Below are positions 10,411 through 45,982 of a stretch of DNA of 62,497 nucleotides, in pieces. The number at the start of each line of letters is the position of its first letter. Position 1 is the stretch's first letter. The notes beneath the pieces are model-generated. The model saw nothing but the letters and a program-made list of their open reading frames with translations, was not told the origin of the DNA and ran no database searches. The DNA is from Legionella yabuuchiae (GTDB taxonomy: Bacteria > Pseudomonadota > Gammaproteobacteria > Legionellales > Legionellaceae): NCBI RefSeq assembly GCF_900640115.1, contig NZ_CAAAIW010000016.1, forward strand, positions 1 to 62,497, given 5' to 3'. A program made the translations under genes and the position numbers.

Positions 10411-10538
10411 ATGCATATAACTTAGCATATCCCTATAAAAACCCGTTAATATATCCAATCATGCTGGCTTAGGTTCAAAAATAAGTCGGATTCATTAACA
10501 GGTCATCTGTTTCATATGTATAACCAAAGGATGTGGTT

Positions 10539-12566
10539 GTGATCAAAAAATGGCCCGTATTTGAATTTAATCTTCCTCCTGCCTTACTGCTCAGTATCGT
10601 AGTCGCTATTCTTGTGTGGGTCGTTAGTTTTTTAAATGTCTATAAACTGATAGATGGGTATGCCTATGATTCTATACTCGTTTCTACTCCAAGCTATCAA
10701 ACCTCTGTTGAATCTAAGGTTTTGTTAATACAAGCCAATCAGGACATTCATGCTATCAACGAACCGACTTGGATACGGTTTTTAGATAACCTTGAACAAA
10801 GCAATCCTAGTCAAGTGATTTTTTTATTTTTTCCCAGCCAAGCCGGAGTCTCTTTTTATTCAAAAGCCAAACAATATGGAAATGTTTTATTTGGACGTCG
10901 GATGCTATCGGACACAAAAGCCCAAGTTCTTGAACCTTGGCCGGAGCATGCAAAAGATTTAAATCTTCCCTTTGGTGTCCAAGCGCTTCCAAAAAGCCAA
11001 TATGGTGTTTATCGGTTTCAACACACTGATTATTCATTTAATAATCAACCCATGCCAGCGGTAGAGATCCGTGTTGCACAACAATTGGATCATTGGACAA
11101 AGCCCCCAAAAGCCAAAACATATTATATTGATTTTTTATCGGGAACAGCTTCCCTTCCTTTTTTAACCCTTTCACGGGCCTTTGAGGATGAACTGGTATC
11201 CGAAATGATAAAAAATCGCGCGATAATCATTGGCAACACATCACCAGATTCGAATAATTTAACCACTCCCCTCATTCACAATGGGCTAACCATTTCAGAA
11301 CCACAATTTCATGCTTATGCATTGCAAACGCTTCTATCCAAAGAAGCCATACAATGGATGGGGCCTTTTATTAAACTGTTGTTTCTAATCTTGGTCAGTA
11401 TAGGTAGTCTATTGATGCTAAACGCAACATCTAGACAAACGACCACGGTATTGTTGCTATTCAGCTTGTTTGTAATGGATTTTCTACTCGCCTGGGCGAT
11501 ACTCGTGTGGTTCAAGCTATGGATTCCACTGTTGGCTATATGGTTAACTCATCTTGCTCTTTATGTGGTCTTAACGCGTTATCGCCTAATGGAGGAAGAA
11601 AAAAAAGCGTTAGAAGTATTGTTTGAATTATCGAGTAAAATTCAAGATAAAGCACTGGATATTAAGGTATATGCATCGGATCAATACTGGTCAAATATTA
11701 TTGTGATGCTCAATCAAACCCTTAACTTAAGCTGTGCAATCTTTCTCGAATGCATCCCAAATTCTCATCGTCTTAAAGAAGTCAGCGCGATGAACTGCAG
11801 TCTTAATAATATAAACGAACGACGGCGTGACTATCATCGAGACCCTTATAAAACAGCGATTGAAACCCACAACTTAATGCAAGTTGAGAATTTTATCGAC
11901 TGTGGGAAAACCAAAAGTCAATTTTTATATGCCTTAATACACTCAAACGAAACGTTAGGGTTTTGGGTATTTTGCTTAGATAAAGAGCAAAAGTTAAGCC
12001 ATGATCAAAAAATTTATATCAATCAGCTTGGCAACCAAATTGCTTTTTTCTTACATCTTCGCAAACTCTGGCTAAAGGAAGAGCAACAAAAAGAAAACAT
12101 CGTGCTTCGCTTTTTAAATCTAGAACGCCATTTCAGCGTAGCTGAAAAAATGCAATCCTTGGTTGCTAAATTAGAGCGGCGGCTAACGATTACTAAAGAT
12201 TTTTTAAGCGCTCAAACCACAGGATGTATCTATTTTGATCTGTTCGGACGTCAATTATTAGCAAATGAACAAGCCGAACAAATCTTTAAACGAGCGGAAA
12301 TCTTGACCGAAGAATTATCTGCACTTGATTTATTAGTCAGCATTACCAACATGAATCTTGACAATGCTCGGGAGGTTTTACAAGAACTCATCGTAATAGG
12401 GACTGAAATAGTTTTTGATATACAACTGCCCAATCACTACGAACAACAATTTCAACTTAGGCTTTCTGTTCCCAATGTGGGTGTAGAATCGTATAAAACA
12501 GAAGCACAAGGCATGCTTAGTTTAGAAAGACGTGGGCTTTTTTTTGAGTTCGTCAAGAAGGATTGA
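10539..12566 (+). CDS. CHASE2-domain membrane sensor without a recognised output domain
   Basis: GTG start at 10539 is chosen because AAAGGA (10525-10530) lies eight bases before it; a GTG at 10533 is too close. The 675-residue product has an N-terminal membrane helix, a periplasmic CHASE2-like domain (about 35-270: YDSILVSTPSYQ, NQDIHAINEPTW, IIGNTSPDSNNL), then three membrane helices (about 275-350). A cytoplasmic GAF-like region (about 365-520) and a PAS-like segment (about 550-640) follow. No histidine kinase, cyclase, GGDEF or phosphatase motif is seen. It lies 115 bases before the CapC-like gene and probably senses an envelope signal controlling the locus, perhaps through protein contacts. 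This role is inferred. Confidence 0.7.
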   Translation: MIKKWPVFEFNLPPALLLSIVVAILVWVVSFLNVYKLIDGYAYDSILVSTPSYQTSVESKVLLIQANQDIHAINEPTWIRFLDNLEQSNPSQVIFLFFPSQAGVSFYSKAKQYGNVLFGRRMLSDTKAQVLEPWPEHAKDLNLPFGVQALPKSQYGVYRFQHTDYSFNNQPMPAVEIRVAQQLDHWTKPPKAKTYYIDFLSGTASLPFLTLSRAFEDELVSEMIKNRAIIIGNTSPDSNNLTTPLIHNGLTISEPQFHAYALQTLLSKEAIQWMGPFIKLLFLILVSIGSLLMLNATSRQTTTVLLLFSLFVMDFLLAWAILVWFKLWIPLLAIWLTHLALYVVLTRYRLMEEEKKALEVLFELSSKIQDKALDIKVYASDQYWSNIIVMLNQTLNLSCAIFLECIPNSHRLKEVSAMNCSLNNINERRRDYHRDPYKTAIETHNLMQVENFIDCGKTKSQFLYALIHSNETLGFWVFCLDKEQKLSHDQKIYINQLGNQIAFFLHLRKLWLKEEQQKENIVLRFLNLERHFSVAEKMQSLVAKLERRLTITKDFLSAQTTGCIYFDLFGRQLLANEQAEQIFKRAEILTEELSALDLLVSITNMNLDNAREVLQELIVIGTEIVFDIQLPNHYEQQFQLRLSVPNVGVESYKTEAQGMLSLERRGLFFEFVKKD

Positions 12567-12681
12567 GTACAGAAAGCTTGAGTACAGCCGACGATTCCTG
12601 CTTAATATTCATTGGCTTTGAAATTCAATTAATTGGGCGGTCGAAGCGGGCTGCAGGCGGGAGATTAAGGGTTAGGTTTCA

Positions 12682-15600
12682 ATGAATATATTCCCATTAC
12701 AATTATTTCCTTACGCGTTATCCAGTTCGGTGATTACCACGGTCTGGATTGGTGTGTTTGTCATCGCTTTTTTTAATCTACGTTTAGGCTGGCTACTTTC
12801 TGGATTTGTAATCCCTGGATACTTAGTGCCACTTCTTATCATTAAGCCTTTATCCGTATTTGTTATTTTTATTGAAGCCGTGCTGACCTACGTCTTTGTA
12901 TGGTCGTATTCTTACTATTTTACAAAATTTCATCATTTTAATCATTTATTTGGCCGTGATCGTTTTTTTGCCTTGTTTCTGGCAAGTGTGTTAGTGCGGG
13001 TTGGAATGGATGGTTGGGTTCTCCCGGAAATTGCAAACCTCATCAATATTCATTTTGGCATTCAAATTGATTACCGTGACAGCTTACAAAGTTTTGGCTT
13101 AATTATTGTCGCGTTAATCAGTAATCAGCTTTGGAAATCGGGTTTAAATCGTGGTTTAGTTCATATGTTGGTTACGCTGTTCATCACTTATTTTATTGTC
13201 CGCTATGTGCTCATTAATGTTACGAATTTTGATGTCAGCAATCTGCAATACATGTATGCCAATATTGCTATGTCTATGCTGGCCAGTCCAAAATCATACA
13301 TTATCTTAATTGTTACAGCACTTATCGCTTCGCGCTTAAATCTACGTTATGGCTGGGAGTATAATGGGATTTTAATTCCCGCATTACTGGCGCTACAGTG
13401 GTATCAACCAATTAAAATTGTATCTTCATTTGTTGAAGCCTTTATTATTCTTGGTCTTTCTTCTGCGTTATTAGAGTCCCGTTTTTTCCGTCATCGAAAC
13501 ATTGAAGGGGCTTATAAATTACTCTTATTTTTTAACGTCAGTTTTGTTTATAAGATCATTCTCGCTTATTTATCGTTTTACTTTTTTCCTCAAGTTCAAG
13601 TTACAGATTTTTACGGATTCGGCTATCTGCTTTCAACACTGATTGCAATCAAAATGTATGATAAGCACGTCTTAGCTCATTTGACCCTAAGTACCTTACA
13701 AACCTCGATTATTTCCGTGTTTGTTGCCAGTATCATTGGCTATAGCTTAACCTTTGTGCCCCAATTTACCACTCAAGCAGAAGCTCTTGATTTTGCCGCT
13801 CAAAAGATCGCGCCTTTACCAAGAAAAACCAATCTAGAAGAAGCCTTAAGACTTGCAAAAATTCAGTTGTATCAAAATAAATTAATGGACTCTTCTAAAC
13901 AACCAACCCTTCAAGAACTAAGACGCTTTACTCAGGCCATTAACACACTACTTGCTTTAAAGTCGACAGAACATACTCCTGAACTTAAACACGCTCAAAA
14001 ACAATTAAGTCAAATTCATTATCAAATCTACACCCTAGAAAACCGTTATTTTTTATTGGAAGAAACTCCACCAGTTAATGGCTGGGGACTTTATGTCATC
14101 GATACAAAAGCCTCTGCATCTGGGTTAATTGAGGTTCCACGACCTTTAAGTGAAGAGAACGCTTATGATGTTGGGGCTGCTCTTTATGCGCGTTTTAAAG
14201 CGAAATCATTTGCTGTGTCTGGTCGCCCCATGGCTGAGGATGTCAGTCCCTATGCTAATGTGTTAGCCAATCCTTTAACTTTTTATCAAGCGTTTCATAA
14301 AGCTGCTGCGGATGAAAATGTTATCCAAGTTCGTACAACGAGTGCCCCACAACTCCAAACCAAAATCTTTATCAAACAATCGTTGCCGCCACTATTAAAT
14401 CTACAAACGTTAAAACAATGGGTGGGACCCATGGAGATTGTATGGGGAAAAAGCGCGTCATCAAATCTCCAGTGGGATAAAACGGACCGCGGATTTGCTG
14501 AGATTGTGTTTACAGCGAAAGCAACCAACCAATTATTAAACGCTCTAATTTCTCCACAATTTAGTATAAAAATGATTTCTTCTAACCAAAATCTGGAAGG
14601 CTATTTATTAGAACGAGTGTTTAAAGAAAACCCTTTAGCCGACAAAGGTTCGAATTTGTATCAAGCCCCAAGCCTTTCAGAATTATTATATTTTGACCGA
14701 GAAATACTGACGCCTTTGTTAATGGTTTCTTTTCAGCATGATCAATCGCTACAATGGACTAAAGACACACTCAATAAATTAAAACTTATCAATGCCCAAG
14801 CCAGTGCTATGGGCTATCAAATTACGTACTATCATCATAAAAACACGGATGAATATTATTTAATACTCAGGGAAATCCCCGAATTGAAGGAGCGCCATTA
14901 TGGAGGGACATTCATTATTCGCCTAAATCAATATAATCCCTATTTTGTTCAAATTCCTCGACCAGTATTTGAAATGAATAGTTTTGAATATGGGCTCGCG
15001 CTCTTTGAATTACTCAACGCCCGCGCTCTGTTCTTGGCTGGAGCTCACCCCTATGCAAATCTTGATAAAAGCTCCGATCTCTTGCGGTATGTGAATCGTC
15101 ATAATTTATTGAACCTTGCCACCCAAACTTTTTTACGTGAAACGGGGGATACTCCTTATCTCTTAATTCAAAGTCGGGCGTTTGGCCTTTATCCTAACTA
15201 CCCAGCACCCGAGGCAGATGTGCTGCTTTCATTTGACGATGGCGCCACCCGTTTTGAACAATTTTCAACGTTAGACAGACAGTTAATTGAAGCAATCAAA
15301 CAAATGGGATTACAGTTAAAGATGGTAGGTGGATCCAAAGCTACAACCGGGTATGAAGCAAGCGGTTCTTATATCACACACTATTTTGAACAATTAAAAA
15401 ACAAGCAGTTAGCCATTCTTTGGTTATCGCCGGTTACGAACACTTATTTTCGAACGCCTGAGGACAATATTTTTCATGAGGCAAAGTTTAATGCCGCCAA
15501 TATTCCTACCGTACAAGGACTGCTTTATTCGTATTTGCGCTCGAGTAAACTGGGAACTTCAGATGAAGCGCCCAACGCCTTAAAACAAGCCATAGAGCGC

Positions 15601-15867
15601 TATATGGGGCTTCAAGATATCATAATTTTACAATCACTGGTTAATTCCTGGCCTGACTACACGTTTAAACGCTTCATTGATGAGAACAGCAGACAACCTT
15701 ATCTACTGGTGTTTGACTCAAGCGATCGTCTGCTCTTGGTCGCTCACTTAGCCGCCCCAGATCCGAATTCATTGGTTAGTATTCACACCAGAACTCTGCC
15801 TCGTCAAGTGGTGAGTGACTATATCGAAACACGCGCAGCTTGGCTTATCTTGGAAAATGCGCCATGA
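12682..15867 (+). CDS. Double CapC/PgsC-like membrane protein fused to two degenerate hydrolase-like modules
   Basis: 1061 residues. Residues 1-165 resemble PgsC/CapC, the membrane subunit of poly-gamma-glutamate synthase: GWLLSGFVIPGYLVP, FIEAVLTYVF, YRDSLQSFGLIIVALISNQL. Residues 205-365 repeat the theme (LRYGWEYNGILIPALLAL, SFVEAFIILGLS), so the CapC unit is duplicated, whereas Bacillus PgsC is about 149 residues. The last 700 residues are hydrophilic. Within them, modules near 465-560 (IEVPRPLSEENAYDVGAALY) and 738-850 (VQIPRPVFEMNSFEYGLALF) resemble the hydrolase-like protein encoded at 18313 but lack its His residues. Stop TGA overlaps the next ATG (ATGA). Likely role: inner-membrane channel or scaffold of a polymer synthase. 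The CapC assignment is fairly strong; the modules are inference. Confidence 0.75.
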   Translation: MNIFPLQLFPYALSSSVITTVWIGVFVIAFFNLRLGWLLSGFVIPGYLVPLLIIKPLSVFVIFIEAVLTYVFVWSYSYYFTKFHHFNHLFGRDRFFALFLASVLVRVGMDGWVLPEIANLINIHFGIQIDYRDSLQSFGLIIVALISNQLWKSGLNRGLVHMLVTLFITYFIVRYVLINVTNFDVSNLQYMYANIAMSMLASPKSYIILIVTALIASRLNLRYGWEYNGILIPALLALQWYQPIKIVSSFVEAFIILGLSSALLESRFFRHRNIEGAYKLLLFFNVSFVYKIILAYLSFYFFPQVQVTDFYGFGYLLSTLIAIKMYDKHVLAHLTLSTLQTSIISVFVASIIGYSLTFVPQFTTQAEALDFAAQKIAPLPRKTNLEEALRLAKIQLYQNKLMDSSKQPTLQELRRFTQAINTLLALKSTEHTPELKHAQKQLSQIHYQIYTLENRYFLLEETPPVNGWGLYVIDTKASASGLIEVPRPLSEENAYDVGAALYARFKAKSFAVSGRPMAEDVSPYANVLANPLTFYQAFHKAAADENVIQVRTTSAPQLQTKIFIKQSLPPLLNLQTLKQWVGPMEIVWGKSASSNLQWDKTDRGFAEIVFTAKATNQLLNALISPQFSIKMISSNQNLEGYLLERVFKENPLADKGSNLYQAPSLSELLYFDREILTPLLMVSFQHDQSLQWTKDTLNKLKLINAQASAMGYQITYYHHKNTDEYYLILREIPELKERHYGGTFIIRLNQYNPYFVQIPRPVFEMNSFEYGLALFELLNARALFLAGAHPYANLDKSSDLLRYVNRHNLLNLATQTFLRETGDTPYLLIQSRAFGLYPNYPAPEADVLLSFDDGATRFEQFSTLDRQLIEAIKQMGLQLKMVGGSKATTGYEASGSYITHYFEQLKNKQLAILWLSPVTNTYFRTPEDNIFHEAKFNAANIPTVQGLLYSYLRSSKLGTSDEAPNALKQAIERYMGLQDIIILQSLVNSWPDYTFKRFIDENSRQPYLLVFDSSDRLLLVAHLAAPDPNSLVSIHTRTLPRQVVSDYIETRAAWLILENAP

Positions 15868-18329
15868 AGAAAGGATTATTTTTAATACTGATTCTATTGG
15901 CCATTGGTGTGGGTTGGTTTTTAAATCTGGACACCAAACCAGCCGATCCAATTATCCAAACGAGATTAGACGAAGCTGAATCAAGTATTCTTTACACGCT
16001 AACAAGCAACGCTTGGTTAGAATTTCAGTTGCCGCCTAATACGGAATCTGTAAAGCTAGTCACTAATGCCGACCTCCTTGCCCACCTAGATATCACACCG
16101 CAAGATAATTGGCCTTATGCCATTGAATATCAACTCATCAATTGGGATGGAGAGAACATTGAAACAAACATCCATTACTTTAAAGCGACTGTAAAATACT
16201 ATCATGATCCGAGATTTTCAAAGCCAGTCACCTCTTCCTTTTATTTATCGCCTAAATTTATTCCTTCGGATGGGAAATTAATCCGTTTAAATTTTAGGCA
16301 TAATCAACCCATTAAAACCATCCGCATGCGTTTATTGGAAAAATCACCAATTATTCAACAGGTTAATGTAAGAGTGTATGCGAGACAACCCGTTCCAGAC
16401 TACGAATACCCCATGAGATGGTATCGCTTAAATCAAGAGCAGAAAGAAAAAGTAGCCAAAGGAAGCCTCTTTCCACCGCACCTTCTCAGTGAGCAAGAGG
16501 TGCGTAACTTATTAAGTGAAACGTTTCAACCAATCGCCCCAAGTGGCATTAAGGGTTCAGACTATATCGCACGTAATTTATACACGATAGAACATGAAAC
16601 GTTCGATGAGGTTACCGAACCCGTTCTACCCAAAGGTGTGTTTGTGGACCGTGTTGTCCACGGTGTGATTCCCTTGCCCAAAGGAGAAAACAGAATCCAA
16701 CTTGATTTTGAAACGGCAGAGTTAGGCTCACCCCCTCCTTTAAACAGCAAAATTTTAATCCGCTGGCAAGATAGAACTGCGTTTGAATTTCAACAATTTG
16801 CTGTCACCTGGAAGGGAAAACCCATTCGCTGGGACCATGTTTTTCCTCCTGGACAATTGACTATCATGGCAGCCGGGCAGCTTGTGGTGCGTGCTTACGA
16901 ACTGGGGGCTAAACCTCTAGAGATCACACCCGAACCGCTTTATTTAAGAACTTATGTTAGTCGATTGCAGGAACCCGTCAGTTATCGCATTAATCATATT
17001 CGCCATCAACCGACCTTGTTTAGAATTGACGTTCGGCTGTTGTTGCCCGATGATAGTGCGCCTTTTTATCAAACCCAAGTGGATTATTCATTACTTGATA
17101 AGCAGGGAAAAACCATAAAATCAGGATCGTTAACCATCAATCCTGCTGAAGAAAAGGAATGGTTATCTCAATACGAGCGCGTCGCTAAAGAACCGATCCA
17201 AACTCGGGTTTCATCGCTTGTGAGTTATTTTTTTGTGCTGCAGCCCGAAGTCACTGAAATAAAATTTTCATCCCATAATCCTGTACTTCTTAGGGCGTAT
17301 AACCGTCCCTACCATATGACTCGTACGATAAAAGTACCAGAAGCGTATTACTTTTTAGATGCGCCAGATTTAAGACAACCGGCTTGGTTTTCCTTAAATC
17401 CCATCCAAAACGATCAATTATTATTAAATAACCAGTCGGTTTTATTAACCACGCAAATCGAACCCCCAGAGGTAAACTGGGCCGTTCTTGTCCAAAATTA
17501 TTTCTGGGAGGATTTTCATCCGATAGGCAATTGGTTTGGTCGTTTAATACTCACACCAATCGATGATTACGTGTCATTGCGTGAGGAAGCCTTAGCCAGT
17601 GTTTTTCAAGCGGTTCCGACTAATACCGTTTTTTCATTAACACTTAATGGATTTCTTGATAAACCTAGTGTTGATCCGCGCTTGGTTTACATCCGCAAAA
17701 ACACCTTTACAGGCTCTTTTAGTCTCAGTGTGGATGGCCGATTGCACTACAAAGGCCTATTGACTGGCGAAGCCGGTGAAATCCTGCTGCCGCCTTTAAG
17801 CCAAGGAAAGCACGCTTTTGAAATCAGAAGTGAGGATAATGCTGCATTTTTTATGAATCATACCTCGACTTCCAAAGGGAACGTATTAAAACGTTTGGTC
17901 AATTATCTAGGGCGCCAGGCATTGGAATTTCACTATGAAAAACTGAGCCGTGGTAAAGAAACCTTATCGCTGCGTTATTATGTTCCCTATGGGACGACCA
18001 AGCGCAGTAAAGTAGCCGTTGAAATAGAGGCGCCACAAGAACAGAAAAGTCCGCTGCGTCACTGGAGTTTGTTGAAGCGGGTTTTTGATATTGAACCGAA
18101 TTTACAAGCAAAAGTGCCGGTATTAAACACGCCAGCACAAACAGTGGATAAAGGACGCTTGCTTACGATACCCTTAGGGGAGGATGTCAAACCAGGAACG
18201 TACACCGTCCGAGTTACTTTGTTAGAAGGAGAACCAGGATATGTGCTGGTATCGCGCTTACTCCCTGGGGAGTCGGGTAAAAAAAGAATATTTATCGAGC
18301 CGCGGTTACGCGATGTTAAATTCTATTAA
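15864..18329 (+). CDS. Large exported or membrane-anchored beta-rich protein of the CapB/CapC locus
   Basis: ATG at 15864 overlaps the previous stop (ATGA), giving 821 residues. Residues 1-23 are a Lys-Lys start and a hydrophobic stretch (GLFLILILLAIGVGWFL), a signal peptide or anchor. The remainder is hydrophilic, rich in alternating beta-type sequence and aromatic residues, without a recognised catalytic motif. Segments such as GENRIQLDFETAELG and LTIMAAGQLVVRAYE recall the beta-sandwich-like modules of the two exported proteins further on. It lies between the CapC-like protein and the hydrolase-like protein in an overlapping gene string, so it probably works in the periplasm as part of the same assembly. 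Family not recognised. Confidence 0.65.
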   Translation: MKKGLFLILILLAIGVGWFLNLDTKPADPIIQTRLDEAESSILYTLTSNAWLEFQLPPNTESVKLVTNADLLAHLDITPQDNWPYAIEYQLINWDGENIETNIHYFKATVKYYHDPRFSKPVTSSFYLSPKFIPSDGKLIRLNFRHNQPIKTIRMRLLEKSPIIQQVNVRVYARQPVPDYEYPMRWYRLNQEQKEKVAKGSLFPPHLLSEQEVRNLLSETFQPIAPSGIKGSDYIARNLYTIEHETFDEVTEPVLPKGVFVDRVVHGVIPLPKGENRIQLDFETAELGSPPPLNSKILIRWQDRTAFEFQQFAVTWKGKPIRWDHVFPPGQLTIMAAGQLVVRAYELGAKPLEITPEPLYLRTYVSRLQEPVSYRINHIRHQPTLFRIDVRLLLPDDSAPFYQTQVDYSLLDKQGKTIKSGSLTINPAEEKEWLSQYERVAKEPIQTRVSSLVSYFFVLQPEVTEIKFSSHNPVLLRAYNRPYHMTRTIKVPEAYYFLDAPDLRQPAWFSLNPIQNDQLLLNNQSVLLTTQIEPPEVNWAVLVQNYFWEDFHPIGNWFGRLILTPIDDYVSLREEALASVFQAVPTNTVFSLTLNGFLDKPSVDPRLVYIRKNTFTGSFSLSVDGRLHYKGLLTGEAGEILLPPLSQGKHAFEIRSEDNAAFFMNHTSTSKGNVLKRLVNYLGRQALEFHYEKLSRGKETLSLRYYVPYGTTKRSKVAVEIEAPQEQKSPLRHWSLLKRVFDIEPNLQAKVPVLNTPAQTVDKGRLLTIPLGEDVKPGTYTVRVTLLEGEPGYVLVSRLLPGESGKKRIFIEPRLRDVKFY

Positions 18330-19194: not shown

Positions 19195-22100
19195 ACAAAG
19201 CTATAGTATTGGGAGTCTGCCTCCTATGCGGATTATTCTTTTCTAAGGCTGCGTTTTCAGAACTGGATAATCTGCAAAGCGTGTTATTATCCACTTATCA
19301 AACGCCCTTACGTTGGGACAACATCGAAGGGCCACCAGAGTGGGTATCAGGAGCCAAACCCAGTTACTCTCCAGCACTTGGCATGCATCTGATAACGCTG
19401 CATCCTGGCCAATCCGTCAAAGTTCGGATAAATGAGCAAAGCCGATTGCGGGTAACCAGCCCCTGCCAACTCCTTTCAAACTCCGAGTTAGCCGTCGATA
19501 CATCCAATGGCAGCGGATTGTATGCCAAAGTCCCTCTAATCCCTAGCCGCGATAACCATTCTTTAGTGAGCGAAGAAGCTTGGTATAAACCCCAGCTTTT
19601 TATCCTTTCTCGACCCAAACACAAGACAACCCCGCTTCAATTCGCCCTATTTGCCTCGCGCTATGAATATCTTCCTGAAATGGCCCCTTATCGTGAAATT
19701 GTGCCATTATGTTCTAAACAAGTACTCATGGGGCGAGAGCTAGATGGTGGTCAGCAGCCTTACTGGTTGTTAGAACCTGGAGTCGAACAATCGATTCGGA
19801 TTAAAGGCCCGACAAGGCTTACGTTTGAACATCGACTGGCTTACCCTCCATTTGAATCGAGCCTGGTGCAAACCTATGAACTCAAGACGAAACTCAACCA
19901 TCATCCCTTCAAGATCTTAGAGTTCGTTACCTCTCTGGAAACCAGTTGGCCGGTAAAAATTAATGGTCAATTTGAAGTCGTTGGGCGTCTTGAACGAGGT
20001 TTTTTAGAGATTCCTCCAGGCGATCATACCTTACAAATTCAACCCTCGGTAAGAATCGTCGGAAGACTGCTTCAGCAACAAAATCCAGACTATTTGTTTC
20101 CCAAATTAAATGGACCGAAATGCTCTCCAGCACAAGCGAGACAATTGATTAAGCAATCAAGACTTAACTTATGGGAAATGACACCTCGCGACGTTAAAGC
20201 CATTATTAAGCATCCTAACGCCCTGCCCGCCAAAACAGAATTAGCCGTCCTGCGCATCATACGCGATAATGCCAGAAAAGCAGGTGGTGTCCTTGGGGTA
20301 ATGGTGATGGAACATTATGCAAGAGACCATCAGGATTACCCACGGATCAAACAATTAGCGGACGAACTGTTTGGATATCATACTTTTTATCGCACTGTAA
20401 ATCCGGTCAATAAAAATCCACGTTTTTCGCAGTATTTAGCTTGGTTTCTTCCTAAACCGTTGCATAATTTTGGCAATCAAGGTAAAGGGCTTGTTTTTGC
20501 CGAGCAATTTTTAAATGCCTTGCTGGATAGAGTTTCCAGTGCAACTTTTGTCGGGTTACCCACCGCTACAAGAGAAAATGACGCTGCCAAACATCACTAT
20601 TACCTACCCAAACGCCCTGCTCCCGTTCCGTTACGAGTCATTGTGGATCCTACGCACACGACTCCAGGCGCATTATTTTATATTCAGTTTAATCACCAAA
20701 CACCAATTGCCATGCATGTGACGCGCAATCCTGAACTGCCCTGGCAAGAATATGCTTTAATTCAAGGGCAGTCAGGAGCTGAGATGCTTAAACAGCTAAA
20801 AAAAGTCACTCTATGCCCAACCTTAAGTGGCCCTTTTAGTCAATGGCAAAGCCCAGCCCCTTTAATTTTAGCTAATACCTTAGAACTGACTTTACCGCCT
20901 GACGTTCAGGTGGTAACCGCTTGGAAAGCCAATGACAAACAAACGGTCTCCTTAGCGCTGCAATATCGGGCCTCTGATCCATTCGTGCTGTCTGAAACCA
21001 GCTACTGGGCCGCCCTCCGAACGTTGTCTCCTGACATACCTGTGATCCGCTTGTTACAAACCTACTTACACATACCTCATGCCACTCAGTTGCCCGCGGC
21101 TGAAAAAACCCTGCAAAACCATTGGCTTCCTTTAGTCCAATTTATTCAGTCGCGATATAAGCAGTTCTCTGCTCCCGTTCATACTCAACCCACTATGTTG
21201 CAACATACACACAAAACCCTCGACCAAAAGGTAGTCGCTCAGCTAAAAACAAACGCCGAACAACTTGAGCGCCAGTCGCAATGGGTGCCTGCTTTAGAAC
21301 TGTGGAGTCAATTATCTCAGCAAGGTTCAAAAGAAATACAACCCTTCGCGAAACAGCATGAAATTAATGCATTGTATCATCTTGGAGAGCATTATCTTGC
21401 AGAAATGAAATTGCGTAGTTACCTCTTATCTGGCGATTCCCCCATAAGAATTTGGGCTTACAAGAAACTGCTAGCGCTTTATAAGCAACAACATGCCATT
21501 GAAGAAATCACGACCTTAACGGCCGCAATGATGATGATAAGCCCTCAAGTTGAAGTCACCAAGCAATTGGTTGAAGCGTTGCTTGCTGAACATGAACCGA
21601 CATTAGCCCTCATGGTTGGATTAACCTTGCCCGAGCCGCTTCAACCAATTGATTCAATGCTTAGAGCCGCCTATCAGAGTCGCTGGTGGGGTCTTTATGT
21701 GCGCTTAACTCAACAGCTCCCAACCATTGAGGCCCAACAATTTTGGAACGCATTACGTCTCATGGAGCAATCCAACTTTAAAGAAGCTCTAGAAGGATTT
21801 ACAGCGTCTGGTCGTTTGGGGCAACCCTGGAAAAAAATATTGCTTGAGGGATGTGTCATTAAAACACAAATTACATCGCCTAATCCCCAAATCAGAGCGA
21901 ATGGTGTTAAAGCCTGGGAGCATTGGCAAGCCAATCAACCCGGCCATTACGTTTGGAAAAACGAGGACAATATCATACAAGATTATGCGAACGGATACAC
22001 ACTCTATAGCATTGAAAGAGATCTGTACTCACAAGTCTATGAAGGCACCCGCACCCGACCTGTAAAAATGCGCATTATAGGGCCGATTAAAGTTAGGCTT

Positions 22101-22550
22101 GAAGTTCGTCCCATGCATTCTAGCGCTGCCTTTAAGCCGCTTGATGGCTGGTTTTATATTCGTGAGCATAAACGCGTTACGCCCTATGCCATCAGCAATA
22201 ATTTCCCGTCACAAGCCATTAAAATCATTGGCAAACCCAATGATGTAGCCGGTCAGCGTTTCTTTGTTGAGTTTAATCTCGGAGCAGGACCTCATAATAT
22301 TACCGTCGATGCAGGGAATCATTCGTTTTTATTACGCCCCCATTTACTGCGCCCTGAAATTCCAGTACCGATTTTACCTACCTTAAATTCTGCCACTAGA
22401 CAGGCAGCGCTCCAAGGTGGCTTAATAGATCCTAAAGCAGTTAAACATCCTTGTTTCTTTTATCACTGCCTTACGGTGATTAAAAATAAATCCAAGTGTA
22501 CGAATCAAAAAACAGCCATTCCCTTATGCAAAGAACGATGCAAACGTTAG
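19191..22550 (+). CDS. Very large exported protein with repeated beta modules and helical repeat region
   Basis: ATG at 19191 overlaps the preceding TGA (ATGA). The product has 1119 residues with a signal peptide (AIVLGVCLLCGLFFSKAAFS). Several segments share the pattern xxVxxRIxGPxxxRxE followed later by a PPGDHTL or GPHNITV-type strand: near residues 200-290 and 950-1070, with a shorter N-terminal version (HPGQSVKVRINEQSRLRV). Residues 690-900 are helical and TPR-like (QLERQSQWVPALELWSQL, FKEALEGFTASGRLG). The similar GP module also occurs in the next gene's product. This looks like a periplasmic scaffold linking inner- and outer-membrane parts, which is inference from composition and operon position. 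It overlaps the next gene by 25 bases. Confidence 0.65.
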   Translation: MNKAIVLGVCLLCGLFFSKAAFSELDNLQSVLLSTYQTPLRWDNIEGPPEWVSGAKPSYSPALGMHLITLHPGQSVKVRINEQSRLRVTSPCQLLSNSELAVDTSNGSGLYAKVPLIPSRDNHSLVSEEAWYKPQLFILSRPKHKTTPLQFALFASRYEYLPEMAPYREIVPLCSKQVLMGRELDGGQQPYWLLEPGVEQSIRIKGPTRLTFEHRLAYPPFESSLVQTYELKTKLNHHPFKILEFVTSLETSWPVKINGQFEVVGRLERGFLEIPPGDHTLQIQPSVRIVGRLLQQQNPDYLFPKLNGPKCSPAQARQLIKQSRLNLWEMTPRDVKAIIKHPNALPAKTELAVLRIIRDNARKAGGVLGVMVMEHYARDHQDYPRIKQLADELFGYHTFYRTVNPVNKNPRFSQYLAWFLPKPLHNFGNQGKGLVFAEQFLNALLDRVSSATFVGLPTATRENDAAKHHYYLPKRPAPVPLRVIVDPTHTTPGALFYIQFNHQTPIAMHVTRNPELPWQEYALIQGQSGAEMLKQLKKVTLCPTLSGPFSQWQSPAPLILANTLELTLPPDVQVVTAWKANDKQTVSLALQYRASDPFVLSETSYWAALRTLSPDIPVIRLLQTYLHIPHATQLPAAEKTLQNHWLPLVQFIQSRYKQFSAPVHTQPTMLQHTHKTLDQKVVAQLKTNAEQLERQSQWVPALELWSQLSQQGSKEIQPFAKQHEINALYHLGEHYLAEMKLRSYLLSGDSPIRIWAYKKLLALYKQQHAIEEITTLTAAMMMISPQVEVTKQLVEALLAEHEPTLALMVGLTLPEPLQPIDSMLRAAYQSRWWGLYVRLTQQLPTIEAQQFWNALRLMEQSNFKEALEGFTASGRLGQPWKKILLEGCVIKTQITSPNPQIRANGVKAWEHWQANQPGHYVWKNEDNIIQDYANGYTLYSIERDLYSQVYEGTRTRPVKMRIIGPIKVRLEVRPMHSSAAFKPLDGWFYIREHKRVTPYAISNNFPSQAIKIIGKPNDVAGQRFFVEFNLGAGPHNITVDAGNHSFLLRPHLLRPEIPVPILPTLNSATRQAALQGGLIDPKAVKHPCFFYHCLTVIKNKSKCTNQKTAIPLCKERCKR

Positions 22551-24538
22551 CCAACAGCAAAATAAACAAGTTGATGATCAACGCCATCGTCATAGGGTGC
22601 TTTACTATATTCTCGCTTACACCATTCGCGGCTAACAATACCATGCCCCCCAACACCTTACCCGAGCAAAAGAAAGAAGCCATTATCCGGAAAATGAATG
22701 CGTTGCTTTGGCTAGCCGAACATAATAAAGAGAAACGCGCTGAAGCGTTAGCGAAGGGGGAGATGTTATATTATAGCTATCCTGAAATTCCTGAACTACA
22801 ACCTTTAAAAACCCGTTTAACACGTCATTTGCAATGGCTCTTGTTTACTAATATTTACAATAGCGCTGGTGTTCGCTATTTCAAACAAGAACACTGGCAG
22901 CCAGAAGGTCAATTGATGCGGATACGGAAAGCCCTAACCCCAGCGCTTTCTAACCAAGAATTTGTATTAACTGGCGAAGGGCGATTGGTCTATACGATAA
23001 AATCACAACAAGCGGTCCAGTTAGGTATCGTTATGCAAGTGGCAGACGTCCCTATTCTATCGCCTGCCCCGATGACGGTGCAATATCGCATTGATGATCA
23101 AAAACCAAAACGTTTGAATTTCAAGGCCAGTCAACAGAAAAAAATCATACGAATTTCTGTACCAAGCGGTGAACATTTGATCAAAATCGAGCTCGTTAAC
23201 CCCGTTTTTAACCAATATCTTATTCTTAATTTTGAAGAAAATGGTCTTAAACCCGAGTTTAAGCATATTGAAGAAATTTTTTACATTGCCACCCGTAAAC
23301 AACCCGTACAGTTTAAAATCGTAGGCCCTGTGATGATTCGCATTGATGAACAACGCGAACGACAAATCATAACACGCTATCAATTTGTGCCTGAAGGCAC
23401 ACATACACTGGAGTTACTGCCTTCCACCAAACGACCAGAAGCCTTATTTCGCATCTCGCAACGAGTTGAATATGAGCCCATCAAAGCCGCAAAACCGCGC
23501 TTTAATGAAGTTAATTATCAGCCCGTACTACCTTCTTATGAGACCTTACCTACCCCAACCAAGCCGAAGCAAGTGATTTTAAAAGATGGACTTAAGCTAG
23601 GCGGGCAAGAAGATGGCACATGGAGTTATTCGCTGGGTGAGATTAAACGACAGAATGTGCTTGTCTCTGATGTGAACGATTTAGACCTAGAAGAATTTTT
23701 AGAGCCCCAATTGGGGCATCACTATTACAATGAACATTTAAATACCTATTTCACCACCAATTTTAAAGAACATATTCGCCGTTTTGGTGGCGCGACATTA
23801 GGGCTTGTGGAGCGCATCCAATTTCGGCCAAACTGGCTACCAGTGAATATGACGCTTTATGGAGATGCCTTTTTCCAAAATCCAGAGGGCAATCAATGGC
23901 TGCCACTGGATGGAAAACAGGAATGGTCCACCACTTGGATAGGCTCCATACACCAAAAACGCGATTTTACCCCCAAAACGTTCCACATTCCTCGGTTTTC
24001 AGCCTTAATTCGCGGCATGAGTTTAGACAATACGGAAGACTATGATGTAAGGACGGTCGATCAAGACATTTTCACGCCATACACATCAGATCACCGCCAA
24101 ATTTTTGAGTTCTCGGATACGTTTTATCATAGACCTTGGCTAGATTCCATTGCCTACGCTGGAGGTGATGTTGCAAACAATCAGCGATTAAGCATTCTTT
24201 ACAGCAAAGTCAATCTCGGTTGGCAGCAACTTTTAGGCCCATTTCAGGCAGGTGTATCGTATCAATATGCCAAATATTATCCGGAGGACTTTTTAAGAAG
24301 AACGTATGGATTTGATCTTCTTTGGCAAACATGGTGCGATAGTTTAAATCTCTATCAAATAAGATTTCAGATACAACGAGACATTGATGCGCCAGCCACT
24401 ACTGGATTTCTTATATTTACCTGGCGAAACAGCAATGGACGAGGTTTTCGCGACGTTGCTCCCGAACCGTTTGAATTTAGAGACATACGCCAACGAGAAG
24501 TTCCTGGTTGGCCAAATAATGCAATGAATGTGGATTGA
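22526..24538 (+). CDS. Exported protein with probable C-terminal outer-membrane barrel, CapB/CapC locus
   Basis: The ATG at 22526 (MQRTMQTLANSK) is preferred over an upstream GTG at 22496; ATGs at 22538 and 22571 are also possible. From 22526 the product is 670 residues with a signal peptide ending LTPFAANN. The N-terminal third contains two beta modules like those of the preceding protein (QFKIVGPVMIRIDEQRER, then PEGTHTLELLPS). The C-terminal 250 residues alternate polar and aromatic or hydrophobic residues (ATLGLVERIQFRPNW, STTWIGSIHQKRDF, RLSILYSKVNLGWQQLL, FQAGVSYQYAKYY), suggesting an outer-membrane beta-barrel. It could be the exit port for the polymer. Barrel assignment is from pattern only. 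It ends three bases before the CapB-like gene. Confidence 0.6.
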   Translation: MQRTMQTLANSKINKLMINAIVIGCFTIFSLTPFAANNTMPPNTLPEQKKEAIIRKMNALLWLAEHNKEKRAEALAKGEMLYYSYPEIPELQPLKTRLTRHLQWLLFTNIYNSAGVRYFKQEHWQPEGQLMRIRKALTPALSNQEFVLTGEGRLVYTIKSQQAVQLGIVMQVADVPILSPAPMTVQYRIDDQKPKRLNFKASQQKKIIRISVPSGEHLIKIELVNPVFNQYLILNFEENGLKPEFKHIEEIFYIATRKQPVQFKIVGPVMIRIDEQRERQIITRYQFVPEGTHTLELLPSTKRPEALFRISQRVEYEPIKAAKPRFNEVNYQPVLPSYETLPTPTKPKQVILKDGLKLGGQEDGTWSYSLGEIKRQNVLVSDVNDLDLEEFLEPQLGHHYYNEHLNTYFTTNFKEHIRRFGGATLGLVERIQFRPNWLPVNMTLYGDAFFQNPEGNQWLPLDGKQEWSTTWIGSIHQKRDFTPKTFHIPRFSALIRGMSLDNTEDYDVRTVDQDIFTPYTSDHRQIFEFSDTFYHRPWLDSIAYAGGDVANNQRLSILYSKVNLGWQQLLGPFQAGVSYQYAKYYPEDFLRRTYGFDLLWQTWCDSLNLYQIRFQIQRDIDAPATTGFLIFTWRNSNGRGFRDVAPEPFEFRDIRQREVPGWPNNAMNVD

Positions 24539-24541
24539 ACC

Positions 24542-27500
24542 ATGCAAAAAGAACTCATGGAACGAATTAAACCCTCAAAGGGTACTTATTTATCAAACAT
24601 CGATAATAAAAGACTTAAACCCATCCTTGATGCCTTTCTAAGAAAAGAAAAAAAGAGAGCTAGTCAATTGCCCATGAATGAACGACAATCCATCAACTGG
24701 GAATCTAGCTTATTAAACTTTTTAATCACTCAGATTAAAACATCCCTACATGAAATCTCCTTATTGTACCTCCATCACTCTAAATTTGAACGGCTTTACC
24801 GTAAAGCCGTTACCGATGAAGAAAAGAAATTATTGCTCTTAAGTTTTTCCAAGCGATTAGGCGCATCCGATGAAGATCTTAAAGAGGACCGCCTAGCCTT
24901 AGGACGATGGTTGGATAGAGAAGCAATGGTGGAGCGGTATATAACCTTACGTTCTCAACTTGAACTACAAATCATACTGTGCGTTGAGAGACTAGAGCCT
25001 ATCACCAAAGATCTTTGTCTACGGCTGAAAGAAAAACAATTTGCAACGCATTGGCCAGAAGTAAATATTAGTGAAACACTTAAGTCCCTATTAAATTATG
25101 AGAACAATGAACGTGTTGTCGTGATTACTTTACAAGCAATTAAAGGAATTATGGCTTGTTTACCCACATCCTATCGTAAAACATTTATCAGCCAGACAAT
25201 GCGATTTTCGATTTTACGTGCCGCACTCGATTCAAACAATAACACTTGGATCCAATGTGAGGCGATGAGTACCGTGGAATACAGCTCACCTCAAGTGCTG
25301 ATCAAGTTGATCCATAAGCGGCTAAGTCATCCCAAACCAGGGGATGACTTTTTTATACGCAGTCATGCTGTATGCCTTCTCTGTAGCAACGACTCTTCTG
25401 TGATGCAAAATCAATTAATCGCCTTAGCGGTTGGTGACGAAAGCCCTTATGTGCGGCAAACGTTAGCGAAACAGTTCATTCGCTTACCTGATACATCCAT
25501 TAGCACCATTTTGTATCAACTAGTTTTAGAAGATAACATCGCAGCAGTTCGTGCTGCGGCAATTCTCAGTAGCTTAGATCTCATTACAAAGCGATCATTG
25601 TTTGAAGAAATAATCAACGTATTCAAGCAAGTTTTTATCAATGAACAAGATGTGTTTGTGCTTAGAATCAGCTTCAAAGTTATTGTAGACGGCTATCAAC
25701 GTTTAAAAAAAATCGACCCGTCTTCAGCAAAAGCCTGGTTTGATCAGTTCAACCCTTGCTTGAATAAAAAACACCTAGAAGGTTCAAGTCTTAAGGTACG
25801 ACGCTGGGCAGCACAAGCGGTTGAAGCGCTCTGGTATCAACAAAATCAAGAAGCACAAGCCCTTGGCGAGGCTTTAAAGAAAGCCATTCAGAATCTTAAA
25901 CCCGGCCATACCAAAACGCTGTCTAAATCATTAATCAAACAAACCGACCCGATTTTTATGGGACGAGTCATGGCAGCGTTGACACAAAAAGATTTTGGAC
26001 TCTATTTAGAATCTCGACGCTTTCGTTCAAAAATCACGCGCGGCCCAAGCTTTGGTGTTCGCTTCTGGCGATTAATGTATGAGATTTCTCACCCCTCATC
26101 GAATAAACGCCAAGGCTTTCCCTATACAACGGCAAGAATCTCAACAGGAGAACTTCGAGCGCCCTCTGCGATTCTTGCAGAGGTTACTAAAACCAACGTT
26201 CCTGGTGAGCCTTTATTCATAGATGAGGAAGATGGTTATCGCCCTTATTTGCCGTTAATGGATGATATTCTGAGCAGTCTGAAGCACCCTCATAAAGCCA
26301 TTAAACTATTCACCAGCGAGGGCATTACAGAAATTAAAGCGCCTCAAAAAAGAATCAAGCGGCTTTGGGCCAAGTGGCGATTGAACCTTGGATTTTCCAA
26401 CTACGCTGCTCTAAGAAATTGGAAGGAATCCAGTTCCTTCGGACCTAAGCGTTATTTAGCAGCCTTTAGACAACTTGGTTTTAAAATCAAATTTAACGCC
26501 TACAATGGAAAATCCTCGGATGAAACCGTAAGCCGTTTTTTTACTGGCGTATCGTTTACGCCAATACTTAACCAATGGGATGAGTTTAAGAATTATGTTT
26601 TTACGGCTTACAGCAATACTCTTTCAGAGCTGTTTCTCTTTTCTTTAATTGTATTATTTTATTTTATCGGCCGTCTTTTTTATGTTAACTGGCGAATTTA
26701 TCGCTTTCGAAAACACATTCCGTTAGTTATTGGAGGGTATGGCACACGGGGTAAATCCGGCGTAGAGCGAATGAAAGCCGCACTGTTTAGTGCCCTAGGG
26801 TACAATGTTCTGTGTAAAACAACTGGTTCAGAAGCGATGTTTTTGCATGGATATCCACTCTGCGACACGCATGAGTTTAATCTGTTTCGTCCTTATGAAA
26901 AAGCCTCTATTTGGGAGCAAATCAAACTTTTATCTCTCGCCCAAAGAATGGATGTGGATGTTTTTCTCTGGGAATGTATGGGGCTAACCCCCAGTTACAT
27001 TGAAATATTACAACGGCAATGGACAAAAGATGACATTTCAACCATTACCAACACTTATCCAGACCATGAGGATATCCAAGGCCCATCTGGAATTAATGTG
27101 GCTGAATCCATAACCCATTTTATAAATCCTGGCTCAAAACTAATTACCAGCGAAGAGCAAATGTTGCCCGTCTTAGCGGAAGCGTCAAAACAATTGAATA
27201 CGGATTTAATTGCTGTGGATTGGGTGAATACGGGCCTTGTGACGCCAGATATCCTCGAGCGGTTTCCTTATGAAGAGCATTCTGTTAATGTGGCCTTAGT
27301 ACTCAAACTCAGTGAAAACCTAGGCATTGAACCATCGTTTGCATTGAAAGCCATTACCGAGCGCTTAATTCCAGACATCGGCGCCTTTAAACGCTTTCCG
27401 TCAGCTCCGATTCAAACACGCAATTTGATCTTCGTCAATGCCATGTCGGCCAATGAGCGTTATGGTTGTTTAAAAAGCTGGGAAAAAATGAATCTTCATC

Positions 27501-28648
27501 AACACGATCCTTATGACCATTATGATGAATGGCTAACAACGTTGGTTAATAACCGCGCTGATCGAGTCGATCGCTCGCAAGCGTTTGCTGAAATGATGGT
27601 TGAAAATTTAAATGTAGATAAGCATGTTTTAGTAGGCTCCAATCTTCGTGGTCTTCAAGGATACCTTGATCAAGCCTGGAAAAATTATGAAACCAGCATC
27701 AACTTATGGCCCGAGAACACGGATCATTTCGAAGAAGAGCGAGTGATTAGGTACGCAAAGCGAATGCGCATCACTTATCATAAAAAATCAGTTCAAAAAC
27801 GACTGCAAGCCATGCTGCAAGGCGTTGCTCCCGAGCAAGAAATCTCTGCGTTTGTTAAATTGTGGGATTCGGTGGAGCAATTAAGTGAAGCGCTTAAAGA
27901 ATCTGATCTCAGACCATGGCAGGATGCTATTTTAAAAGCACATAATCAAAACTTAAAGAACTATCAACAATTTAAATCATTTCTTAATACAGCAAAAAAC
28001 GCAGAAACTAGTGAGCATGAGACCCTGAATCAAGCCTTTAGAAAACTAATGCACGACTGGTTTTTTGACAAGCTCTTCGTCATTGAACACTTAGAAGCAA
28101 GTGGGGATTATATTAATATGCAAATTCAGCAAATTACCCCACCTGGCTATAAAAATACGGTAGTTGGCATTCAAAATATAAAAGGGCCAGGACTGGCGGT
28201 CGTGAGAGATTGGCTGGCTTGGGAAAGGTGCTTCAACGCGTGTGAAAAAACCAAACAAAAGAATATCAGTGAGATTAAAGAAGGCTTAGAAGCGTTAGAT
28301 GCGTTTGAAGAGTTTAATATCTTATGTGAGGAGTATGTCCATAAGACAATGAAGGACTTGAATCAAAGACCGATTGCAGAGAAAGAGTGGTATCAAACAA
28401 AGATAACTCAAATTTTAGCACGGCTTGAAACGAGAATGATAGCGATTCAACGCCAGATTCAAACTGAACCACAACCCAGTTGGCGCACAGCCATACAAGC
28501 TACGGTTGCCAGATTACTGGATATTTATAAAGGCGTGCAACGACGTAGAGTCGCCGACAAGATTTATGAAGATTTAGCCGAGGGACGAATTAGTCACGCC
28601 AAAGCGATTGATGAGTTACAAAAGCTTAACCGGTCCCAATTAATTTGA
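24542..28648 (+). CDS. CapB/PgsB-like Mur-ligase-family amide ligase with large helical N-terminal extension
   Basis: 1368 residues, against about 390 for Bacillus PgsB. Residues 1-640 are helical with HEAT-like repeats. A membrane helix lies near 690-712 (ELFLFSLIVLFYFIGRLF). Residues 725-1060 are the CapB ligase: P-loop GGYGTRGKSG (about 731), CKTTGSEAMF, a VFLWECMGLTPSYIEI segment, NTYPDHEDIQGP, and NRADRVDRSQAFA (about 1003), all direct counterparts of PgsB motifs. The last 300 residues are helical and unassigned. CapB/PgsB uses ATP to join glutamate through gamma-amide bonds, with CapC, at the cytoplasmic membrane. The monomer here is unproven. It closes the polymer locus; rdgB follows 41 bases later. 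Confidence 0.8.
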   Translation: MQKELMERIKPSKGTYLSNIDNKRLKPILDAFLRKEKKRASQLPMNERQSINWESSLLNFLITQIKTSLHEISLLYLHHSKFERLYRKAVTDEEKKLLLLSFSKRLGASDEDLKEDRLALGRWLDREAMVERYITLRSQLELQIILCVERLEPITKDLCLRLKEKQFATHWPEVNISETLKSLLNYENNERVVVITLQAIKGIMACLPTSYRKTFISQTMRFSILRAALDSNNNTWIQCEAMSTVEYSSPQVLIKLIHKRLSHPKPGDDFFIRSHAVCLLCSNDSSVMQNQLIALAVGDESPYVRQTLAKQFIRLPDTSISTILYQLVLEDNIAAVRAAAILSSLDLITKRSLFEEIINVFKQVFINEQDVFVLRISFKVIVDGYQRLKKIDPSSAKAWFDQFNPCLNKKHLEGSSLKVRRWAAQAVEALWYQQNQEAQALGEALKKAIQNLKPGHTKTLSKSLIKQTDPIFMGRVMAALTQKDFGLYLESRRFRSKITRGPSFGVRFWRLMYEISHPSSNKRQGFPYTTARISTGELRAPSAILAEVTKTNVPGEPLFIDEEDGYRPYLPLMDDILSSLKHPHKAIKLFTSEGITEIKAPQKRIKRLWAKWRLNLGFSNYAALRNWKESSSFGPKRYLAAFRQLGFKIKFNAYNGKSSDETVSRFFTGVSFTPILNQWDEFKNYVFTAYSNTLSELFLFSLIVLFYFIGRLFYVNWRIYRFRKHIPLVIGGYGTRGKSGVERMKAALFSALGYNVLCKTTGSEAMFLHGYPLCDTHEFNLFRPYEKASIWEQIKLLSLAQRMDVDVFLWECMGLTPSYIEILQRQWTKDDISTITNTYPDHEDIQGPSGINVAESITHFINPGSKLITSEEQMLPVLAEASKQLNTDLIAVDWVNTGLVTPDILERFPYEEHSVNVALVLKLSENLGIEPSFALKAITERLIPDIGAFKRFPSAPIQTRNLIFVNAMSANERYGCLKSWEKMNLHQHDPYDHYDEWLTTLVNNRADRVDRSQAFAEMMVENLNVDKHVLVGSNLRGLQGYLDQAWKNYETSINLWPENTDHFEEERVIRYAKRMRITYHKKSVQKRLQAMLQGVAPEQEISAFVKLWDSVEQLSEALKESDLRPWQDAILKAHNQNLKNYQQFKSFLNTAKNAETSEHETLNQAFRKLMHDWFFDKLFVIEHLEASGDYINMQIQQITPPGYKNTVVGIQNIKGPGLAVVRDWLAWERCFNACEKTKQKNISEIKEGLEALDAFEEFNILCEEYVHKTMKDLNQRPIAEKEWYQTKITQILARLETRMIAIQRQIQTEPQPSWRTAIQATVARLLDIYKGVQRRRVADKIYEDLAEGRISHAKAIDELQKLNRSQLI

Positions 28649-39167: not shown

Positions 39168-39208
39168 ATGACTTAATGAGCATTACCCCTGCCTTTACGG
39201 AGTCCAGT

Positions 39209-44250: not shown

Positions 44251-44459
44251 GAATTAAGATTAATTCATTAACATTAAAAACCAGCTATTTTGATAATATT
44301 TAAAGCATTTGTCTATGTTTTTGTAACGCTCAGTTTTCCTATTCCCGCTCTAGAAAGTACCCGCTAGGAAGATTAAGGTGGCTTAAAATAAAGCATTTGA
44401 AAAGAAATAAATTAACTCATATAGTTATAAAAATTTTTTTATATCAAGTTCCCTATATT

Positions 44460-45773: not shown

Positions 45774-45873
45774 AACAAGGGATTTAAAAGCTTCGCACTA
45801 TGCGGGCTGACTTAAGCCGCTTTCTTGCCATATTTCAATATGCTCTTCCAAATAGAGTAGAGCCAGCTCTATT

Positions 45874-45945
45874 GCGAGTTTTTAAACAACACAAGGGCGA
45901 AAAAATGGATAGCATAAAAGTCGCATTTTGATGTTGATTGAGTAT
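45874..45945. repeat. Decayed right-half copy of the dispersed palindromic repeat
   Basis: TTGCGAGTTTTTAAA, GGGCGAAAAA, TAGCATAAAA and CGCATTTTGA follow in the same order as in the right half of the complete copy, with substitutions between. It lies in the gap between the two flippase genes. Confidence 0.55.
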
Positions 45946-45982
45946 ATAGTTATAAAAATTTTTCTATCAAGTTCCCTATATT

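Follow-up and report, generated by a model that had tools for sequence, protein, structure and literature searches.

Poly-gamma-glutamate (PGA) synthesis systems have been worked out mostly in Bacillus, where the CapBCA(E)/PgsBCA systems have a CapB ligase of ∼400 amino acids (aa) and a CapC membrane protein of ∼150 aa. Gamma-PGA hydrolases or transpeptidases (PgdS, CapD) accompany many of them. To our knowledge, how a PGA-like chain would transit the periplasm and outer membrane of Gram-negative bacteria is an open question. A capsule survey took the Bacillus anthracis operon as its model for PGA capsules, CapB and CapC being mandatory components (PMC5542703). Here we analyzed 62,497 nt of Legionella yabuuchiae DNA (contig NZ_CAAAIW010000016.1, positions 1-62,497, hereafter the window; the source genome is 2.65 Mb in 89 contigs) that carries a seven-gene operon with a giant CapB-like ligase and a doubled CapC-like protein. 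Since it has the CapB ligase motifs and the CapC membrane family in common with CapBCA, the operon is a variant of the CapBCA-type system. It differs from the Bacillus systems in the size of these two proteins (1368 and 1061 aa), in having no CapA, and in its additional periplasmic proteins and predicted barrel in the outer membrane. We consider it probable, from computed protein families, motifs, conservation and two protein folds, that the operon encodes a trans-envelope machine for synthesis and export of a gamma-linked glutamate polymer in diderm bacteria. We found no description of this operon among the titles and abstracts listed from the open-licence literature, preprints excluded.

Analysis of open reading frames (ORFs) gave seven intact ORFs, all on the plus strand, between 10533 and 28648. 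All the co-directional genes of the original prediction were present: a CHASE2 sensor, a doubled CapC, two large exported proteins, a small hydrolase, an outer-membrane barrel and a giant CapB. Genes 1 and 2 are separated by a 115-base gap, genes 2/3, 3/4 and 4/5 overlap by 4, 17 and 4 bases, respectively, and genes 6 and 7 are 3 bases apart. The gap between genes 5 and 6 is 23 bases, or an overlap with the other gene 6 start. The inner start codons were picked by eye; the longest-ORF alternatives are 829 aa for gene 3 (from 15840), 317 aa for gene 4 and 680 aa for gene 6 (from 22496). Genes 3 to 6 had no convincing Pfam match, and an Rfam scan of the window returned nothing above thresholds. 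The absence of CapA claimed for the locus extends to the whole L. yabuuchiae genome, with 0 matches to PGA_cap (PF09587), while 7 of 14 control genomes were positive.

Two other Legionellaceae genomes (G016 and G026) carry a compact PgsB-PgsC-TIGR04332 operon instead (L018:7722-10536 and L019:9054-11861), with products of 399, 154/155 and 384/396 aa. The third product is the 'poly-gamma-glutamate system protein' TIGR04332 (295.5 and 275.1 bits). These operons share the CapB and CapC families, and the same diderm family of hosts, with the giant operon, whereas TIGR04332 is theirs alone: none of the seven operon proteins matched it. No member of the gene 1, 3, 4, 5 or 6 families was found within 15-18 kb around the compact operons.

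Gene 7 (24542-28648, plus strand, 1368 aa) matched the PgsB model TIGR04012 over residues 703-1061 (216.3 bits, E 5.5e-64). The motifs GTRGKS, KTTG, ECM, DH.D, GP and N.R.DR are common to gene 7 and five compact CapBs, and lie in its catalytic part (residues ∼716-1240; 26687-28261, plus strand); profile match and motifs together link the ligase to CapB. Compared to the compact proteins, giant CapB carries a long insertion and an extended tail. A membrane segment is found at residues 697-715, ahead of the CapB part, and in 50 of 76 rows of the CapB family such a segment starts ∼40-50 residues ahead of GTRGKS. The N-terminal half has candidate HEAT-type repeats (Pfam HEAT_2, 23.3 bits, below the cut-off of 27.7), and a PDB search with the CapB profile found alpha-Rep/HEAT structures at profile positions 252-370. 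Repeat proteins and chance matches were all that gene 7 and the CapB profile returned in PDB sequence searches.

Gene 2 (12682-15867, plus strand, 1061 aa) contains the doubled CapC that had been proposed: PF14102 matched in two stretches with 124.1 bits (Pfam cut-off 27), a first unit at 12748-13155 (84.5 bits) and a second at 13318-13674 (60.4 bits), both on the plus strand, which relates this region to CapC. Nine membrane segments were found by hydropathy, and 6 to 9 across the 34 family rows (33 rows plus the window, as in the gene 2 profile).

An even sample of 369 gammaproteobacterial genomes, including that of L. yabuuchiae, was searched for CapB and CapC. CapB matches were found in 11 genomes and CapC matches in the same 11. 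Six of these were giants from four families (CapB frames of 1369-1666 aa; two CapC stretches sharing a frame of 1063-1096 aa), and five were compact (CapB 405-462 aa; a single CapC stretch, with a frame length of 158-226 aa). Giant CapB was paired with giant CapC in 6/6 genomes and compact with compact in 5/5. Five of the six giants have both matches on a single contig, with ∼11.5-12 kb between the CapC and CapB match starts; the sixth has them on separate contigs. Giant CapC was also matched in 29/29 genomes of a non-random set chosen for giant CapB, in one of them (G402) in two frames.

A species-level scan (one genome per species, 84,980) yielded 400 stretches and 333 relatives, and the locus counts given here refer to the best 80 of the 333. 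For 52 loci the sequence extended 9 kb or more upstream of CapB; in these, CapC was found in 45, gene 3 in 49 (52/80 overall), gene 4 in 45 and gene 5/6 in 45. All five core genes (CapC, gene 3, gene 4, gene 5/6, CapB) occurred together in 38 of the 52, so that the predicted co-occurrence holds for this core as well as for the giant CapB-CapC pair. Some of the misses reflect other gene orders (e.g., in Thiotrichaceae) or stretch ends. Where 300 bases or more precede CapB (73 loci), the barrel gene is its direct upstream neighbour in 57; for a few of the remaining 16, the choice of ORF start alone accounts for the failure. Clustering of the remaining ORFs of the 80 loci gave one cluster shared by 19 loci; the other clusters each covered 3 loci. 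The 19-locus cluster consists of related proteins of up to 798 aa (e.g., L037:14227-16620), possibly a common signalling family.

In Legionella, all seven genes occur in the same order in two further species. The ratio of nonsynonymous to synonymous substitution rates (dN/dS) against L. impletisoli was 0.07-0.14 for the six operon genes computed, with dS of 1.3-1.8, near saturation; gene 3, whose sequence spanned two retrieved pieces, was not among the six. Chance or artefact was ruled out by the recurrence of the full set of genes in three Legionella species and of the core far more widely; recurrence in other genomes likewise ruled out a one-off oddity of the L. yabuuchiae genome. The operon is found in 3 of 7 Legionella genomes. 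The flanks of the window are common to L. impletisoli, but not to L. londiniensis, and therefore movement or loss of the operon within Legionella is likely.

The original prediction spoke of an intracellular gammaproteobacterium, but the system is not restricted to such hosts: the carriers named for the 80 loci are chiefly environmental bacteria and metagenome-assembled genomes (MAGs) from many groups. These loci include Gamma-, Alpha-, Beta- and Zetaproteobacteria, Thermodesulfobacteriota, Myxococcota, Nitrospirota, Planctomycetota, Verrucomicrobiota, Acidobacteriota, a Hydrogenedentes and a Campylobacteraceae MAG. We take all 80 to be from diderm groups, including a few labelled merely 'proteobacterium' or endosymbiont. 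In a quick CapB-domain tree (the window, 79 of the 80 giant loci and 5 compact CapBs) the giants formed one clade apart from the compact proteins (Shimodaira-Hasegawa-like approximate likelihood ratio test 100), with a long-branch warning. The tree and the compact comparison used five of seven compact loci; L027 and L029 had no ORF passing the filter. A reduced version of the operon was observed in Erythrobacteraceae (L083:5745-13879 and L101:5772-13828), with a CapC of ∼822 aa, a gene 3 product of ∼250 aa, gene 4 and a giant CapB.

The hydrolase assignment of gene 4 (18313-19194, plus strand, 293 aa, exported) agrees with its AlphaFold2 model (predicted local distance difference test, pLDDT, 93.0; predicted template modelling score, pTM, 0.89). 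The modelled fold is the one common to N-formylglutamate amidohydrolase and the PGA hydrolase PghP, which points to a gamma-glutamyl product; among the matches listed, the nearest folds were N-formylglutamate amidohydrolase, poly-gamma-glutamate hydrolases and succinylglutamate enzymes. PghP His40, Glu45, His103 and Glu165 correspond to His, Asp (for Glu), His and Glu in gene 4, invariant in 47/47 sequences (46 of 49 loci plus the window). Invariant residues thus align with zinc, catalytic and polymer-binding residues of PghP, and the residues aligned with the gamma-PGA contacts Asn151 and Arg171 of PghL (YndL) are kept. A glycosyltransferase assignment (Glyco_transf_4, 13 bits, cut-off 28.5, E 0.09) was ruled out by the fold. 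A PDB sequence search with the gene 4 profile gave no more than repeat proteins or chance matches, and a viral-contig scan with a PghP query gave none confirmed.

The periplasmic end of gene 2 is a tandem of two domains related to each other and to gene 4. In hhalign comparisons, copy a (residues ∼440-730; 13999-14871, plus strand) matched copy b (residues ∼730-1061; 14869-15864, plus strand) at 99.6%, and gene 4 was matched by copy a at 97.7% and by copy b at 96.0% (94.6% in another setting). The first zinc His is replaced by Ala in 21/34 rows of copy a and by Arg in 31/34 of copy b, and the second by Arg in 30/34 and 34/34, respectively. In place of the catalytic Glu, copy b has Trp in 32/34 rows, and copy a has Phe, Leu, Tyr or other residues. 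The Arg274 equivalent, corresponding to PghL Arg171, is retained in copy b (32/34). Judged by these sequences, the two domains are pseudo-enzymes, which probably hold or guide the emerging chain.

Gene 3 (15864-18329, plus strand, ∼821 aa) is predicted to encode an exported beta-rich protein with one N-terminal membrane segment. A hydrophobic N-terminus is present in 44/44 family members. The window copy had no Pfam match, and the best family match was DUF5643 (E 0.0011) in 3/44. Gene 5 (19191-22550, plus strand, 1119 aa) encodes a large exported protein and gene 6 (22574-24538, plus strand, 654 aa) the predicted outer-membrane barrel protein. The two genes correspond to the halves of a single protein in most of the loci that could be scored, with gene 5 as the front part: 39 of 48 scored rows (window included) have them fused (at least 1650 aa) and 9 have them split. 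The fused or split state changed at least four times on the tree; a frameshift or the choice of ORF start may explain the split rows L052 and L073. The candidate barrel gained support from an AlphaFold2 model of gene 6 (pLDDT 85.7) with helices and beta domains, in which 14 long strands, by our count, form a barrel (23606-24436, plus strand) and structure comparison gives barrel matches. In L051, L056, L061 and L064, where the barrel protein is separate, its N-terminus resembles a lipoprotein signal: by eye, a hydrophobic stretch that runs up to Gly-Cys-Ser. The barrel proteins of Legionella begin with an ordinary hydrophobic stretch. Among five fused homologues scanned with Pfam, one had weak TPR matches (E 0.06-0.07) and another an OmpA domain. 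The latter (73 bits) is inserted at residues 551-646 of the fused protein L059:4108-9942 of a Sulfuricellaceae MAG. For this part of the operon, the nearest known systems are PelB, PgaA and BcsC, the outer-membrane exporters of synthase-dependent exopolysaccharide systems, which combine a barrel with a periplasmic scaffold of repeats. Unlike the Pel, poly-N-acetylglucosamine (PNAG) and cellulose systems with their membrane glycosyltransferase synthase, no glycosyltransferase was found above Pfam cut-off among the seven proteins.

These parts could also be read as an envelope-modifying set, with CapB and CapC adding gamma-linked residues to wall or lipoprotein targets, gene 4 acting as a wall amidase and the barrel as an anchor; we assign very little probability to this. 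Another reading takes the product as a storage polymer in the cell or periplasm, with glutamate nitrogen stored and recovered by the hydrolase, and with a barrel that only vents or takes up fragments. A lucinid-clam symbiont study places CapB and CapC, which may be of the giant or the compact type, under 'Storage compounds', enriched in Tropical Eastern Pacific clades (PMC11168628). Loci L044 and L057 come from symbionts of what we take to be lucinid clams. A polyhydroxybutyrate polymerase gene, phaC (36711-38582, minus strand, 176.5 bits), is also located in the window, ∼8 kb downstream of the operon. The 'Storage compounds' label appears to be an annotation and not an assay, and the barrel and the exported proteins of the operon point outwards. 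Storage therefore seems to us improbable.

Gene 1 (10533-12566, plus strand, 677 aa) matched CHASE2 (35.1 bits, Pfam cut-off 26.3) and no HATPase_c. Homologues elsewhere are mostly ∼810-930 aa with a HATPase_c-like end, which is absent from the three Legionella copies (677-685 aa). Of three homologues scanned with Pfam, all had HATPase_c (two above cut-off) and two CHASE2 at E ≤0.1. The usual phosphorylated kinase His seems to be missing in homologues with the kinase-like end (by eye). A gene 1 homologue is found upstream of CapC in 18 of 20 stretches fetched there; the two exceptions are a contig end at 1.25 kb and a different gene. In L175 the CHASE2 gene is split over two frames. A receiver-type gene lies between the gene 1 homologue and CapC in eight stretches, two of them assigned by Pfam scan and the rest by similarity.

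On the preferred interpretation, a gamma-linked glutamate polymer made and exported across the envelope, we infer the glutamate monomer, the linkage, the direction of transport, export and regulation as follows. As expected from its family, the CapB part of gene 7 would activate the chain end with ATP and add glutamate on the cytoplasmic side of the inner membrane, and the doubled CapC would be the membrane partner or passage. The gene 2 domains without zinc His and catalytic Glu would then probably hold or guide the emerging chain. Gene 4, a putative zinc gamma-glutamyl hydrolase by fold and residues, would trim, release or clear the periplasmic chain, and gene 3 may serve as an anchored scaffold in the periplasm. 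The gene 5/6 protein would span the periplasm and let the chain leave through its predicted terminal barrel. The gene 1 sensor may tune the machine; some taxa would do this via the receiver protein, and Legionella, whose copy has no kinase-like end, by a different route. We lean slightly towards a distinct, undescribed class of polymer machine present in many diderm phyla, in which gamma-linked glutamate, as a non-ribosomal amide polymer, is made, threaded past the degenerate hydrolase domains on the doubled CapC, edited by a live hydrolase of the same kind and exported by a dedicated barrel in the outer membrane, all under a CHASE2 sensor. Such a class would be to amide polymers what the Pel, PNAG and cellulose exporters are to polysaccharides.

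Several results weigh against this interpretation. The PgsB equivalog cut-off of 222.7 was missed by the window protein (216.3) and by two others (209.9 and 186.6), and gene 2 reached 45.8 bits against the PgsC equivalog cut-off of 96.45. No CapB membrane segment was detected at the threshold used in 17/76 rows. A single segment would place the ∼700-residue N-terminal half of gene 7 outside the cytoplasm, with no N-terminal export signal seen, which is a puzzle. The acidic ligand is retained as Glu in the gene 2 domains (copy a, 28/34; copy b, 31/34). For gene 4, PghP is not one of the two best fold matches, which leaves room for other amide substrates; PghP Thr79 and Ser80 have no counterpart in the alignment, and Arg157 aligns with an invariant Arg of N-formylglutamate amidohydrolase (15/15; profile from 15 of 20 loci) and with no PghP residue. 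In contrast to PghP and PghL, which have the same fold, zinc and catalytic residues, none of the 47 gene 4 family members matched PF05908 (or PF05013). The hhalign link to PghP is weak (2.75%, E 0.017; 3.5% in the other setting), though above 30/30 scrambled or reversed controls; that to N-formylglutamate amidohydrolase was 4.9% (1.5% in another setting), neither being usable alone, and PghP and N-formylglutamate amidohydrolase, known structural relatives, gave 14% on this scale. The overall pTM of the gene 6 model is 0.52, an aromatic C-terminal residue is rare in the barrel proteins (3/48; alignment of 47 of 52 stretches plus the window), and just 1 of 37 fused gene 5/6 proteins has a lipobox-like motif near the N-terminus. 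The repeat scaffold of gene 5 is backed by the weak TPR matches in one of five homologues. The Erythrobacteraceae loci L083 and L101 have no gene 5/6 barrel gene.

Some of these points also bear on a different amide product: a gamma-glutamyl copolymer, a sugar-bearing gamma-glutamate chain, another amino-acid chain, or gamma-glutamyl tails on a surface molecule. Such a product would fit the insertion, longer tail and sub-threshold PgsB score of giant CapB, and the N-formylglutamate and succinylglutamate enzymes among the nearest folds of gene 4. In archaea, one report suggests that CapB could serve a glycan-bearing PGA wall polymer (PMC11915815). On the other hand, the CapB motifs and the residues aligned with PghL Asn151 and Arg171 are retained, and no further identified conserved gene was seen beside the operon in the flanks, which end at or near CapC on one side. 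We regard a different amide product as unlikely.

Directly downstream of the operon are a Ham1-type protein gene and then a TPR-methyltransferase gene, with matches in 1/80 and 2/80 loci; both are outside the conserved unit. Further along the window are a gene for a 1168-aa protein with MFS, acyltransferase and AMP-binding domains (39176-42682), two adjoining Polysacc_synt flippase-like genes (44397-47296, ∼36 bits each), and a gene for a LupA (Legionella ubiquitin-specific protease) domain protein (49703-50881, 214 bits), probably of effector type.

The operon offers candidate parts for every step of the transit of a PGA-like chain through the Gram-negative envelope, and since several carriers, among them Marinobacter daqiaonensis, Halomonas daqiaonensis, Methylovulum miyakonense and Ramlibacter rhizophilus, are cultured and are not known pathogens, the question is directly testable. 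The locus also gives leads to the function of four families that lack a convincing Pfam match, and it shows that a far larger machine can lie behind a bare 'CapB/CapC' annotation in such bacteria.

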